NCBI GenBank assembly: GCA_021800155.1
Contig: JAJYZG010000005.1
Coordinates: 1 to 55,260, forward strand
Source of the DNA: a bacterium
Lineage (GTDB): Bacteria; Patescibacteriota; Saccharimonadia; Saccharimonadales; UBA4665
Length of the DNA stretch: 55,260 nt
Direction: 5' to 3'
Numbering within the stretch: position 1 is the stretch's first letter; every line of letters begins with the position of its first letter. A program made the position numbers and the translations under genes. This document shows positions 2,141 through 7,091 of the stretch, one piece after another. A model generated the notes under the pieces. It saw only the letters and a program-made list of their open reading frames with translations, searched no databases and was not told the DNA's origin.

Positions 2141-2491
2141 ATGAATACGTCAAATCATTTTAAATATAGACTTTTTGCAGCAATACCGTTGTCCCTCATA
2201 ACAGCTATTGATTTAGAAGGAACGGTTTTTGCAGCCAGCGCGCAAATGGGCCAGGTTGATTCATTTATCCGGAGCGTCATAACTGCGTTAACGGGTATTG
2301 CCGGGCTGGTTGCAACCGGGTTTTTTGTCCTAGGGGGTTTTAAATACATTACAAGTTCTGGTAACCCGCATAACCTCGAACACGCTAAACGCACAATCGT
2401 CTTCTCGGCACTTGGGCTGGCGATTGCAATTGCGGCTTTTGTTCTCAGTAATATCGTAACCAGTCTGGCGAGTTCAGCTTTCGGTGGGTAG
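2141..2491 (+). CDS. VirB2/TrbC-like pilin
   Basis: The 116-residue precursor has a signal-like N-terminus (about 1-32, with VFAASA as a plausible cleavage site), then two hydrophobic helices separated by a short polar loop. The loop carries GGFKYITSSGNP and HAKR, the layout of the VirB2/TrbC pilin family, whose members build the conjugative pilus or its inner-membrane base. It is the first gene of an operon that continues with VirB6-, VirB3- and VirB4-like proteins. A closely similar module recurs at the N-terminus of the next protein. Family assignment rests on topology and the loop motif. Confidence 0.75.
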   Translation: MNTSNHFKYRLFAAIPLSLITAIDLEGTVFAASAQMGQVDSFIRSVITALTGIAGLVATGFFVLGGFKYITSSGNPHNLEHAKRTIVFSALGLAIAIAAFVLSNIVTSLASSAFGG

Positions 2492-2497
2492 CGCGAA

Positions 2498-3808
2498 ATG
2501 AACGGTAGTCCGGTCATCCACAGCTTTTTAGCTCCTATTTTAGCCAGTTTGGGCGGATTTGCGGCTCTGATTTGTGCGTTCTTCCTGGTGTGGGGAGGGA
2601 TTAGTTATATAACTAGTTCTGGCAATCCGTCTAAGCTAGTTAAGTCTAAGCGCATGTTGACGCGCTCGTTGCTGGGCTTAGCAGTTGTGTTGTCAGCATC
2701 GGCTATTGCATTAATCCTGACTCGCACTTATAGCGGATCAACAGTAAGTTCCATAAATAAATTGCCCGACTTAAGTGCCATCAAACCTGCGTCTGCTGGC
2801 GGTGGATTGGTCGGTATCCTAATAAGTGCCATTACCGGTGTGTTTAAAACTATCGTTGAAACTGTAGGCAGACCGTTTATCTCAGCCTTAAATTACTTCA
2901 CTAAAGCAACACCGCTCTTAACACATAGCAGCAGTGTCGTGCACTTATGGGTAATTTGCAGTGGTATTGCTGATGGGCTTTTGGTCCTTGTGATTGTACT
3001 TTTAGGCTTCCATATCATGGGAGCTGAACAACTGGGACTTAGGGACGTTAACCTATCTTCGTTGGTACCACAGTTAATCTTTGCCTTCATCTTAATTAAT
3101 ACGTCGATATATGTTCTAGACGGAGCAATCGAGTTGTCGAACGTAATGATTGCGGCAGTTCGCTTAGGTATCGGCAATAATACTCCTTGGCAAGCTTTAC
3201 TTAATGTCGTAGGCGGGGCTTCGGGTTATAGTCTGGCAGCGCTAGTTATATTTGTGGTATTTCTGGTGTTTAGCGTAATCTTATTAATTTATTATGTCGG
3301 CAGGATTGTAGCTCTTTATCTTGGGGCGGTTCTGGCTCCTATTATTATCTTACTTTGGTTAATTCCGGGTTTTAGAGATTTTGCCGAAAATACACTCAAA
3401 ACTTATCTTGCAACTGTCTTTGTGCTATTTATCCACGTTATCATTCTTGGGCTGGCCGGATCGCTTTTTGCGGCGGTAGTCGTCTCTGGTCATGGCAGTC
3501 CAGATCCTATCATGTCACTGCTGCTCGGGCTTGCAACTCTGATTGCCCTTATTAAGACTCAAGGTGTACTAATGCAGCTTAACTATATGAGCATTGGCCC
3601 GCGTTATGCCCGGAGGCTTGGCACCAGTTTTATAAATGGAATAAGTTACCTCGCGCTGTCAGCTCGGCATAGCTATAACGGCGTTATCGCGTCTGCTGCC
3701 GGTTCCATAGGCGAAGGTGCTCAGGTGCTTGCTGCCGGGAATAAACCCAAAATCAATCACGAACCGTTAAAAACACCGTCCTCGAGCAAGAATGTGAAGT
3801 CTTCATGA
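2498..3808 (+). CDS. VirB6/TrbL-like channel protein with N-terminal pilin-like module
   Basis: The 436-residue polytopic membrane protein has two parts. Residues about 1-75 repeat the pilin layout of the preceding gene: two hydrophobic helices around a loop with YITSSGNP and basic residues. After a linker (about 80-125), the remainder has at least six hydrophobic segments, including a long GRIVALYLGAVLAPIIILLW stretch typical of TrbL/VirB6-like inner-membrane channel components. The last 40 residues are polar and probably cytoplasmic. It starts 6 bases after the pilin stop, and its stop overlaps the next ATG (ATGA), so translation is probably coupled. The pilin-VirB6 fusion is the notable feature. 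Confidence 0.72.
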   Translation: MNGSPVIHSFLAPILASLGGFAALICAFFLVWGGISYITSSGNPSKLVKSKRMLTRSLLGLAVVLSASAIALILTRTYSGSTVSSINKLPDLSAIKPASAGGGLVGILISAITGVFKTIVETVGRPFISALNYFTKATPLLTHSSSVVHLWVICSGIADGLLVLVIVLLGFHIMGAEQLGLRDVNLSSLVPQLIFAFILINTSIYVLDGAIELSNVMIAAVRLGIGNNTPWQALLNVVGGASGYSLAALVIFVVFLVFSVILLIYYVGRIVALYLGAVLAPIIILLWLIPGFRDFAENTLKTYLATVFVLFIHVIILGLAGSLFAAVVVSGHGSPDPIMSLLLGLATLIALIKTQGVLMQLNYMSIGPRYARRLGTSFINGISYLALSARHSYNGVIASAAGSIGEGAQVLAAGNKPKINHEPLKTPSSSKNVKSS

Positions 3809-4296
3809 AAACATCAATTGTTCCCGCACAGGTTACGTCAATCGAGGATACAATAGCCGCCAATCTTTCGTTAACCCAAATAATACTTCTAATAATTCCG
3901 GTTTTTATGGCAGCCTTGATTTTTGCCGGTCTGCCACCGACTATGCACGTAAAAGTATATAAGCTGATTGTCATAATCTGTTGTAGTTTGCCTTTAATCA
4001 CACTTGCACTCAAAGTACGCGGGCAGTTAGTTCTTAAATGGATAATTTTACTGGCTGGCTATAGGTTAAGACCGCGGCGCTATCTCTTTAGCGCTCACTC
4101 TCCTTGTTGCTGTGAAAAAGTAAAACCTGAAATTCAGTCTTCGCTGCCATCTGCCACTGGAGTGGCCAAAGCAGTAAGACTGCCGATATTAAAACCGGCT
4201 GAGCAAATTGCAGTAGGTGAATATTTAAGCAATCGGCAGATAGCATTTTATGCCGACGATATGGGGCAGTTAAATGTGGTTATGGAAAGTAAATAA
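3805..4296 (+). CDS. PrgI-family (VirB3-like) membrane protein
   Basis: This 163-residue protein has two adjacent hydrophobic segments (about 23-47 and 53-78), then a basic stretch with YRLRPRRYLF. This is the layout of PrgI proteins, the VirB3 counterpart that docks VirB4 to the inner membrane in Gram-positive and CPR T4SS loci. The C-terminal half is polar and less conserved. It sits between the VirB6-like and VirB4-like genes, overlapping both neighbours (ATGA upstream, 23 bases downstream). Confidence 0.7.
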   Translation: MKTSIVPAQVTSIEDTIAANLSLTQIILLIIPVFMAALIFAGLPPTMHVKVYKLIVIICCSLPLITLALKVRGQLVLKWIILLAGYRLRPRRYLFSAHSPCCCEKVKPEIQSSLPSATGVAKAVRLPILKPAEQIAVGEYLSNRQIAFYADDMGQLNVVMESK

Positions 4297-4897
4297 GACC
4301 GGTTCGGCAATTGATCAAATTGGCATTATCGGGGCTCGCGACGGCATGCTGTTAATGACGAATAATTGCTATTGTTGTGTTATAGAGACTTCGGCGGTCA
4401 ACTTTGAGCTTAAAAGTGAGGCCGAACAAGATGCGTTAATTGAGATTTTCCAAAGTTTCTTAAATAGTTTGAACTCTAAGGTTCAATTTATTGTCAGGGT
4501 TCGCGAGATTGATCTTGATCGCTACATGGAGGAGCTGGCTCACAGACTAGATCTTGAAAACAATCCGGTATACCAAAGTCAGATCGAAAGTTATAGCCAG
4601 TTTGTGCGCAGCCTGGTTAGTCTCAATAAAATTTTAAGCCGTAATTTTTATGTATGCATACCACTTGAACTTAAGAATAAGCAAGACATGGATAGTATAC
4701 GTGAACAACTGTCTCTGAAAACAGAAATTGTGGCAAGAGGATTACAGCGGCTTGGCATGCACGCAAGGCAGCTTGACAGCCTGGAGTTATTGAACCTTTT
4801 CTATAGCTTTTTTAATCCGGTTCAAGCTAAGACCCAACCGCTCATTCCGGCTACATTAAAGCAGATGCATGTCGCATTAATGAAGGAGAACGCATGA
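4274..4897 (+). CDS. TraC/VirB4 N-terminal-like protein
   Basis: The 207-residue protein matches the N-terminal region of TraC/VirB4 ATPases: a beta-rich start (SAIDQIGII..DGML), then VNFELKSEAEQDALIEIF and LNSLNSKVQFIVRVR, followed by helices. It has no nucleotide-binding motif. The ATPase domain is in the next gene, which overlaps by four bases (ATGA at 4894). Together the two ORFs have the length of a normal VirB4, so VirB4 is either ancestrally split or represented by two interacting proteins. ATG 4274 lies within the end of the PrgI gene. It is expected to act at the cytoplasmic face of the secretion complex. Confidence 0.65.
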   Translation: MWLWKVNKTGSAIDQIGIIGARDGMLLMTNNCYCCVIETSAVNFELKSEAEQDALIEIFQSFLNSLNSKVQFIVRVREIDLDRYMEELAHRLDLENNPVYQSQIESYSQFVRSLVSLNKILSRNFYVCIPLELKNKQDMDSIREQLSLKTEIVARGLQRLGMHARQLDSLELLNLFYSFFNPVQAKTQPLIPATLKQMHVALMKENA

Positions 4898-6603
4898 ATT
4901 TTACTAATTTAATCAGACGTTCACAAACTGACCATACTTTTTGTATCGGCGAACAAAACCAACTTAGTTTAGTCAGCTATGCCGGTTTAGAGGAGCAGCC
5001 GGATTGTATTGTTATTGACGGCCAATATCTGAGGACCCTGTATTTAAGCGGCTATCCTTATGTTGCACATTCAGGATGGCTAGACAATCTAGTTAATTTT
5101 AACCGTAATGCCGATCTCTCTTTTCATATTGAGGAGATTGATGCAATATCTGCGCTCCCGAAATTGCAGCGCAAAATTACGGAACTCGAATCTACTAAGC
5201 GCGCGATGATTAAAGAGGGCCGGATTGTCGGATCGGATATCACTGATCCACTCGAGTCAGCTACATTGTTAAGGGATAAAATCCAACGGGGGCAAGAGAA
5301 ATTATTCCAGATATCAGTATATATTTGTTTGCTTGCAAGCTCTTTATCCGAACTCGACAAATTGACGCGTTTGCTGGAGAACACACTAGCGGCCAGATTA
5401 TTTTTTGTTAAGGCGGCCCACTATCAACAGTTGGACGGCTTACAGTCGGTCTTGCCCAGAGGCGAAGATCGTTTAAAGCAAAAGCGTAATCTAGACAGCA
5501 GCTCAGCTGCACTCAGCTTCCCGTTTATTTCTTCTGAGTTGGTTACCCAAGACGGCATATTATACGGTGTCAATAAATCAAATAGCTCACTTGTAATGCT
5601 CGATCGTTTTGCGCTTAATAATGCCAATTCGATAACGTTTGCACAATCGGGGAGCGGTAAAAGTTATGCTGCTAAAGTCGAAATTCTGCGCCAGCTGATG
5701 CTTGGAACCGACTGTATTGTAATAGATCCCGAAAGAGAATATTCCGGATTAGCTCAGTCTGTTGGAGGCACTGTTATAGAACTATCGGTTAAGTCAAAAC
5801 AACATATAAATCCCTTTGACGTCGGGGCTTTGTCTAAAGAGGGCAATTTAAACGAGCATGTCCAAGATCTTACGGAGTTAATATCGTTGATGGCCGAAGG
5901 GCTGAATGCGCAAGAAAAGTCGATGATTGATCGTGCGATACTTGAAGTCTACGCTCACTCTAATCCTCAAACAATCACTTTACAGACATTTTACAATTAC
6001 TTAAAAAAGCATAGGTTGATTGAACTATGCAAACGTTTGGATAAATATGTCAGCGGATCCTTGGCTAATGTTTTTAACAATTGTACCAACATCGATCTAA
6101 GCAATCGACTGGTCGTGTTTGACATTAAAGATCTCCCAGATAACCTCAGGCAAATTATGATTATGATGATATCAAGTTTTGTTTGGAATAGGGTTAAGCA
6201 AGAACCCAAAAAACGTCTGTTAGTGATTGATGAAGGTTGGCTTTTACTGGAGCATGAACAAAGCGCACGTTTTGTAGCTGGATTGGTCCGCCGGTCACGT
6301 AAGTACTATCTTGGAGTTGCCATTATATCTCAGCAGGCTAATGATTTTTTGAATAACGAATTCGGTAAAGCCATAGCGAGTCAAAGCGCACTGCGCATAT
6401 TGATGCGCCAAGATACAACCACCATAACTAATGTTGTCGCTGAGTTTAGACTTAGTGAATATGAACAGAATTTTCTGTTAACTTGCGATCGTGGCGACGC
6501 CTTAATCATTGCCGATCTGAATCATGTTGCTCTTAGCATTGTTGCTTCTGCTAACGAGCATCCGTTAATTACGACTGACCCGAAAGAACTTTTTGCTCAA
6601 TGA
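4894..6603 (+). CDS. virB4: VirB4-family secretion ATPase
   Basis: The 569-residue ATPase carries Walker A AQSGSGKSYAAK near residue 252, the downstream DPEREYSGL motif, Walker B RLLVIDEGWLLL near residue 440, and a sensor-like AIISQQANDFL. These are hallmarks of the VirB4/TraC/HerA-like T4SS ATPases that power pilus assembly or substrate transfer. The first 230 residues are an N-terminal platform. No VirD4-type coupling protein is visible in the window, so the substrate class is unknown. It overlaps both neighbours by four bases, which fixes it within the operon. Confidence 0.88.
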   Translation: MNFTNLIRRSQTDHTFCIGEQNQLSLVSYAGLEEQPDCIVIDGQYLRTLYLSGYPYVAHSGWLDNLVNFNRNADLSFHIEEIDAISALPKLQRKITELESTKRAMIKEGRIVGSDITDPLESATLLRDKIQRGQEKLFQISVYICLLASSLSELDKLTRLLENTLAARLFFVKAAHYQQLDGLQSVLPRGEDRLKQKRNLDSSSAALSFPFISSELVTQDGILYGVNKSNSSLVMLDRFALNNANSITFAQSGSGKSYAAKVEILRQLMLGTDCIVIDPEREYSGLAQSVGGTVIELSVKSKQHINPFDVGALSKEGNLNEHVQDLTELISLMAEGLNAQEKSMIDRAILEVYAHSNPQTITLQTFYNYLKKHRLIELCKRLDKYVSGSLANVFNNCTNIDLSNRLVVFDIKDLPDNLRQIMIMMISSFVWNRVKQEPKKRLLVIDEGWLLLEHEQSARFVAGLVRRSRKYYLGVAIISQQANDFLNNEFGKAIASQSALRILMRQDTTTITNVVAEFRLSEYEQNFLLTCDRGDALIIADLNHVALSIVASANEHPLITTDPKELFAQ

Positions 6604-7091
6604 AAAAGATGCTATTTGCGGCCGCAGCAATTGTGATTTTCTTAATGGGTTTGCCGGTTATTGCCTTAATCAGCGCCACCAATATTAGCGCACTGGCTTC
6701 GGCTGCAGTAAGTCTATTTACATCTCCAAAAGTTACAAGTGACGCATATGATTATGGAGAGTGTACTTACTGGGTAGCTCTAAGGCGACTGCAAATTAAA
6801 GAGCCTATTCCTAATACATGGGGAAACGCAATAACCTGGGCATCGCGCGCCACCGCCGATAATTATTTAGTTAATCATACCCCAAGTTTTGGAGCGATCA
6901 TGCAGGATTCTAATGCCCCCGGAGGATTAGGGCACGTAGCATTTGTGCAGAGTGTCAATCCAATAACCGGCGCCTGGACCATATCGGAAATGAACCGTGT
7001 TGGCTGGGACGAAGTCGATACGCGAACATTGCCGGCAACGGCTGCTAATAAATATAATTTTATCCATCAGCCAATCGGCGTGCAGTTTTAA
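6600..7091 (+). CDS. Membrane-anchored CHAP-domain peptidoglycan hydrolase
   Basis: The 163-residue protein has a hydrophobic signal anchor (about 3-38) and then a CHAP amidase/endopeptidase domain. The catalytic Cys lies in YGECTYWV (Cys55), the His in LGHVAFV (His112), and an acidic site in ISEMN. CHAP enzymes cut peptidoglycan peptides. As the last gene of the T4SS-like operon it probably plays the VirB1-like role of opening the wall for the apparatus. The start overlaps the VirB4 stop. A second CHAP protein with LysM repeats is encoded at 38.6 kb. Confidence 0.82.
   Translation: MKKMLFAAAAIVIFLMGLPVIALISATNISALASAAVSLFTSPKVTSDAYDYGECTYWVALRRLQIKEPIPNTWGNAITWASRATADNYLVNHTPSFGAIMQDSNAPGGLGHVAFVQSVNPITGAWTISEMNRVGWDEVDTRTLPATAANKYNFIHQPIGVQF

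Follow-up and report, generated by a model that had tools for sequence, protein, structure and literature searches.

The pairing of a pilin with a pilin-like VirB6 N-terminus has precedents in the literature. Beltran et al. 2023 (PMC9905601) report homology between the N-terminus of archaeal CedA and the pilin CedA1, and the same outcome, with a lower score, for VirB6 and VirB2 of A. tumefaciens. R388 has a separate VirB2, plus VirB5 and VirB8-VirB11; its VirB6 pentamer has been proposed as the base of a five-start pilus and VirB6 helix alpha-1 as the VirB2 recruitment site, the recruitment and assembly sites resting on coevolution, docking and mutants (PMC9259494). A review treats VirB6 as pilus platform as a model still awaiting test (PMC12857230). 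For Patescibacteria, a survey of type IV secretion systems (T4SSs) using PF18895 described pilin arrays of 2-11 genes; in its accessible portion the only fusion passage concerns VirB3-VirB4, and a pilin-VirB6 fusion is not mentioned there (PMC12102498). A literature search for such a fusion, covering the main texts of largely open-access papers, returned no match, and among the papers searched this survey alone names PF18895.

The window analysed here, a stretch of 55,260 nucleotides, is contig C49 of a 1.1-Mb assembly (68 contigs, 95% complete) and carries a T4SS operon of six closely packed plus-strand genes at 2141-7091. Judging by how its relatives are labelled, the source is probably a Saccharibacterium (Saccharimonadales). 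The first two ORFs, lying where the initial annotation had placed them, encode a VirB2-like pilin of 116 aa (2141-2491) and a VirB6-like protein of 436 aa (2498-3808), in the same frame with a TAG between them. They are followed by genes for a PrgI/VirB3-like protein (3805-4296; PF12666, 29.3 bits, cut-off 27), a TrsD-like protein resembling the VirB4 N-terminal part (4274-4897; PF11130, 37.3 bits, cut-off 28.1; NF041427 TrsD, 38 bits, under its cut-off of 200), a VirB4-like ATPase of CD1110 type (4894-6603; NF045971, 360.6 bits, cut-off 325) and a CHAP-domain cell-wall hydrolase with a single N-terminal hydrophobic stretch (6600-7091; PF05257, 53.1 bits, cut-off 26). The VirB6-like gene stands beside VirB2, VirB3 and VirB4 genes in the window and its relatives alike, and no VirB5 tip protein was recognised in the operon. 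The genes 3' of the operon we take to be Pyk and then Pgk; both also follow it in three regions of the same genus, and the L046 contig ends before Pgk. Elsewhere in the window, a small ORF at 1619-1861 has homologues in the three regions of the same genus, where its spacing from the operon varies, a second CHAP-like stretch at 38569-39717 matches the operon hydrolase (E 1.1e-15), and positions 1-240, upstream of the operon, presumably resemble the end of an IS3-type transposase.

The pilin begins with a signal-like part (residues 1-34; 2141-2242) that has a hydrophobic stretch at 11-29 and is probably cleaved; across 48 sequences its mean pairwise identity is 0.26, against 0.68 for residues 35-116. 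The latter form the hairpin (2243-2491 with the stop) recognised by PF18895 T4SS_pilin (45.6 bits, cut-off 26.6), NF045849 (42.6 bits, cut-off 40) and an AF2 model. That this layout is repeated at the N-terminus of the VirB6-like protein, as the initial annotation had proposed, is borne out by an alignment of pilin residues 39-107 with VirB6 residues 7-75 that is gap-free and 42% identical (29/69; BLASTP E 1e-14), and in which the pilin carries GGFKYITSSGNP (residues 65-76) and the VirB6-like protein GGISYITSSGNP (residues 33-44). Its Smith-Waterman score of 146 lies far above the maximum of 73 reached by 4000 shuffles, half of which preserved the order of hydrophobic and polar residues. When a profile was built solely from operon pilins of genomes outside the window's class, it scored 63.0 bits against VirB6 residues 1-100 (shuffle maximum 19.8) and 0.8 bits or less against five other 100-aa segments of the same protein. 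We refer to VirB6 residues 7-79 (2516-2734), supported by BLASTP, shuffles, AF2 and recurrence, as the module.

Scores against family models lie on both sides of the cut-offs. Against PF18895 the window VirB6 scores 28.2 bits as residues 1-91 alone and 27.9 in a six-frame search; the whole 436-aa protein, at 23.0 bits, falls under the cut-off. NF045849 reaches at best 27.6 bits on VirB6, below its cut-off of 40. At E <= 0.001, 57 of 58 full-length VirB6 relatives (window included) match PF18895, and six further relatives score 30.1, 26.6, 35.1, 33.9, 35.2 and 42.8 bits as whole proteins, five exceeding the cut-off and one equalling it. The window protein stays below the cut-offs of PF04610 TrbL (24.5 bits, cut-off 25.9) and PF19597 TrbL_4 (24.2, cut-off 27), which at E <= 0.001 match 35 and 9 of the 58 relatives, respectively; the L163 VirB6 passes both PF18895 (30.1) and TrbL_4 (29.4) in one protein. 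The pilin-type loop is also conserved: K51 is invariant in 58 sequences, T39, S40, G42 and A50 occur in at least 90% of them (the window has S50), and in the window VirB6 the basic residues K46, K49, K51 and R52 lie behind the loop. A PDB sequence search gave no match for VirB6 and two chance-level matches for the pilin (E 0.25 and 0.34).

Structure prediction of each protein alone produced the same helix-SSGN-helix hairpin. The AF2 model of the pilin (48 sequences, mean pLDDT 84.3) has helices at 6-71 and 76-113 around SSGN 72-75, and that of VirB6 (58 sequences, mean pLDDT 80.3) has module helices at 5-39 and 44-79 around SSGN 40-43, with block pLDDT of 87-96 over residues 11-70. The module thus has the two membrane helices, short loop and basic residues of the T4SS_pilin family. 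Behind it lie a linker of low identity (residues 80-103; 2735-2806) with pLDDT below 50 at 82-90 and 92-95, a predicted VirB6/TrbL-like core (residues 104-392; 2807-3673) and a variable tail (3674-3808 with the stop). The core has seven hydrophobic stretches from residue 98 onward, and the TrbL_4 match starts at residue 106. VIA-align places model residues 125-371 onto residues 2-273 of R388 TrwI/VirB6 (PDB 7o3v, 8rt9, 8rtd; Z 10.5, 228 aligned, rmsd 5.7). Ranks 1-3 are all TrwI, at Z of about 10.5; with helical bundles the tool advises caution below about 13, and designed repeat proteins aligned over a similar length reach 9.4 and 8.9. In Foldseek, ranks 1-5 are likewise all TrwI/VirB6 chains, with E of 0.035-0.18, not significant alone. 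A polytopic core of VirB6 fold, into which the initial annotation had the protein continue, is therefore indicated by the consistent TrwI ranks, the individual scores being weak. Fold searches with pilin and module are unspecific, both being two-helix hairpins; with the pilin alone they returned unspecific helical hairpins, and the A. pernix conjugation pilus (8dfu) came at rank 41 with E 2.0.

On these sequence comparisons and models, the VirB6 N-terminal hairpin is homologous to T4SS pilins. The idea was to be given up if the two modules did not align significantly, or if the N-terminal part modelled as an ordinary VirB6 segment; the alignment is significant, and the hairpin is modelled ahead of a TrwI-like core. 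Since the core aligns from TrwI residue 2, with no hairpin in front of that residue in R388, the hairpin is extra to the canonical VirB6 and appears to be an addition in front of an otherwise ordinary, complete core. As modelled, the VirB6-like protein is a stable two-part protein: a pilin hairpin and, after a linker of about 24 residues, a complete VirB6/TrbL core. A reading in which residues 1-75 simply form the opening helices of a standard VirB6, and share the motif by coincidence as membrane hairpins, is highly improbable: pilin and module segments are both hydrophobic hairpins, but the shuffle controls, the Pfam matches and the TrwI alignment contradict it.

To what extent this arrangement recurs was assessed in a scan of 84,980 species genomes with two core motifs, confirmed with the whole protein. 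The 71 loci obtained are labelled Saccharibacteria, Saccharimonadia, Patescibacteria or 'bacterium', with one Anaerolineae; together with fetched regions they make 101 rows, or 82 distinct proteins. The module is present in 76 of the 82, within and beyond the window's class. Four of the remaining six begin at a contig edge (L123, L127, L129, L130), one is a misjoin in which the core is preceded by unlike sequence (L121), and one is interrupted by a stop (L096). No intact VirB6 of this subfamily without the module, and hence no clean counter-example, occurred among the 82: the module is present wherever the N-terminus is intact. In L096 (6244-7509) a TAG in the linker splits module and core ORFs and the core is without a segment, possibly through decay or an assembly error. 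The search for this domain order in CPR genomes, suggested at the outset, thus found the fusion to recur across the class border. Among the matches listed, 24 of the 148 genomes of the order match the window VirB6 at E < 1e-50, and weaker matches are mostly pilins; the weak match in G126 (E 2.5e-7) is to its main-type VirB6. When 379 genomes of the phylum were searched with a profile, 11 from outside the class proved to have fused homologues, which match from profile position 10-17 on (the G458 protein stops short); a pilin match lies immediately upstream in all rows inspected and in 12 of 12 fetched loci. A scan of IMG/VR yielded 32 stretches fitting a pattern and no relatives among them. When plasmids were searched by tblastn with VirB6, a single Streptomyces record matched, through the core alone.

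Pilin modules were also seen in other proteins. At seven loci from genomes of the phylum (L175-L179, L181, L182), long proteins of 530 to >3200 aa, several of them cut by the stretch ends, have such modules close to the N-terminus, often two or three in a row. A Pfam scan of four such proteins found Ig-like, PKD or beta-propeller domains, and they may be pilin-anchored surface proteins. In a 367-aa protein (L180, 6764-7867), a CHAP hydrolase domain comes after a T4SS_pilin/TrbC module.

The surroundings of the operon speak to its wider role. PrgI, TrsD and VirB4 accompany the fused VirB6 in nearly every distinct locus of sufficient length, and a coupling-protein gene lies within the fetched stretch of at least 38 of the 82 distinct loci, a lower bound because many stretches are short. 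PF13814 Replic_Relax occurs in 17 of 28 operon-bearing genomes; among the matches listed, 11 of 25 are no more than 20 kb away from the fused VirB6, against an expectation of about one for genomes of 1 Mb. The window's genus contributes none of these. The PF03432 relaxase was found in none of the 28. With coupling-protein genes and Replic_Relax close by, the operon looks like a conjugation module, and the family as a whole is probably of conjugation type and carried by mobile elements. The 'minimal secretion system' of the initial annotation is to that extent an incomplete description. A distinct set of 15 of the 82 loci has Pyk, does not overlap the coupling-protein set and includes the window; none of the 15 has a coupling-protein gene within the fetched stretches. 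The window copy has neither that gene nor Replic_Relax beside the operon, and neither PF03432 nor PF13814 matched in its assembly, which is 95% complete; a coupling protein encoded at another place in the genome is 49% identical to that of L055. Such Pyk-linked copies are probably settled, and possibly repurposed, chromosomal forms.

The origin of the module is old, not local. In a tree of 95 modules over only 84 columns, from which a truncated array pilin and all module matches not exceeding 25 bits had been removed, 31 VirB6 modules form one clade (support 99/96) and 31 operon pilins another (98/91). The neighbouring pilin gene as parent, which the initial annotation had assumed, does not agree with this separation: a recent local duplication is rejected in favour of an old event, as the VirB6 modules are one old clade apart. 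The best tree joins the two clades with support of 58/0 only, and AU tests reject neither operon with array pilins (p 0.22) nor VirB6 with long-protein modules (p 0.23). Because the 31 VirB6 modules form one clade, the module appears from this tree to have a single origin, which predates either the divergence of the lineages sampled or the movement of the operon between them. A joining of pilin and VirB6 by stop-codon readthrough was likewise rejected: the upstream pilin ORF is in frame in 38 of 93 rows (duplicates included) and out of frame in 55, with mixed stops between the two.

A reversed order of events, in which the hairpin belonged to VirB6 from the start and gave rise to the free pilin, with no fusion in this lineage, would be compatible with any of the functional readings given below. 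It draws on the CedA-CedA1 and A. tumefaciens homologies, whose authors were tempted to view the pilin as a later addition (PMC9905601). Against it, four Gram-positive relatives and the genome's two other VirB6-like genes have the core without the module, and free pilins of the T4SS_pilin family are widespread in the searched genomes; with both observations, gain in this VirB6 subfamily is simpler, and we regard the reversed order as quite unlikely.

Within the subfamily, the core has a mean pairwise identity of 0.53 and the module one of 0.46; the linker reaches 0.28, and the tail 0.13 over the 1208 pairs, out of 1653, that allowed a comparison. Four pairs have a core dS below 1.5: the two closest show a module dN of 0.05 with module dS of 2.7 and 1.2, and the other two a module dN of about 0.6. 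Codon comparison thus shows purifying selection on the module in two close pairs. Pilin and module distances do not covary beyond what the core accounts for (partial r 0.11; 172 of 2000 permutations equal or higher), and the test therefore gives no support for a special pilin-module contact. The fixed pseudopilus or channel ring of the initial annotation is a hypothetical reading.

What might the retained hairpin do? Our first choice, to which we give slightly less than an even chance, is that it serves as a permanent pilin seat at the VirB6 ring. The hairpin would sit in the membrane like a pilin, with both ends outside and the basic loop inside, and the ring would bear one pilin copy per subunit, five if it has the pentameric form known from R388. 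Tethered to VirB6, the module could not leave with the pilus; it would provide a seat or first layer for the docking and polymerisation of free VirB2, no VirB5 tip protein being recognised in the operon.

A different possibility is that the pseudo-pilin is a built-in brake, occupying the VirB2 recruitment site at rest and displaced when pilus assembly starts, and so taking over a job done in R388 by the inner-membrane part of VirB10. The R388 recruitment site is indeed obstructed by VirB10 in the resting structure (PMC12624023), the accessible portion of the Patescibacteria survey names just three VirB10 homologues (PMC12102498), and the linker, modelled as disordered, could swing. The conservation of the module fits a seat equally well, however, and a brake seems to us improbable. 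Somewhat better placed, if still unlikely, is a passive anchor, in which the hairpin aids VirB6 insertion, oligomerisation or stability and the pilin interaction has been lost. This is consistent with the lack of extra pilin-module covariation, with the lower conservation of the module than of the pilin (mean identity 0.46 vs 0.68) and with the pilin modules found, as a plain membrane anchor might be, at the front of surface-type proteins that have Ig-like, PKD or propeller domains, but an anchor would not need the pilin-type loop that has been kept (K51, and T39, S40, G42 and A50). Of the three, the seat remains our preference.

More broadly, Patescibacteria may possess a conjugation-type module, spread across class borders, with a built-in pilus base: every VirB6 subunit would bring its own pilin, and the resulting permanent ring would start or gate pilus growth with neither VirB5 nor VirB10. 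We consider this doubtful. The natural covalent link holds pilin and VirB6 together, so that the pilus base becomes open to structural tests in a small monoderm-type system, and the fusion bears on which came first, the pilin or the channel. There is also a practical consequence. Under the pilin criteria of the published survey (i-Evalue < 0.001, coverage > 50%; PMC12102498), a fused VirB6 would often be scored as a pilin. On the broader reading just given, some of the two-gene 'VirB2 arrays' in print, based on PF18895 counts, would consist of one pilin and one fused VirB6. As PF18895 counts in Patescibacteria probably include VirB6, pilin-array surveys may need correction.

Among the closest known systems are the CD1110-type (MPF_FATA) modules of Bacillota and Actinomycetota, whose CD1110 model the window VirB4 passes. 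The order in E. faecalis pMG2200 (Maff2, CD1112 TrbL, methyltransferase, PrgI, CD1110 VirB4, C40 peptidase) is near that of the window. In four of eight Gram-positive plasmid loci fetched, those of Streptomyces, two Embleya and Enterococcus (CD1112) (L184, L185, L189, L190), the core aligns from window residue 104-107 and no module precedes it; a separate pilin-family gene lies upstream in Streptomyces and both Embleya, and an annotated Maff2 gene in Enterococcus. The Pontibacillus locus (L183) has a marginal candidate core (E 0.034), and none was found in the Priestia and two Paenibacillus loci (L186-L188).

The main Saccharibacteria T4SS likewise has PF18895 pilins, PrgI, TrsD and VirB4 (PMC12102498, PMC10633639). 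In the window's genome (G000) it is a separate locus, on contig C34, with six pilin genes. The genome's other VirB6-like genes, on contigs C34 and C26 (L042, L198), give weak core-profile matches. No module match was found in their two products (1038 and 992 aa), the former being the main-type protein of C34, or in the main-type protein of L061 (972 aa). A parallel to the fusion itself is CedA of the crenarchaeal Ced DNA import system, likewise a VirB6-like channel, with an N-terminus reported to be homologous to a pilin (PMC9905601). CedA is archaeal, the likeness is drawn from its description in that paper, and Patescibacteria are not treated in the accessible portion. Pilin-like N-termini of VirB6 and CedA were thus already known (Beltran et al. 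2023), and the Patescibacteria fusion is a variant of them which, if the proposed role holds, would be a bacterial counterpart of the archaeal CedA-CedA1 relation.
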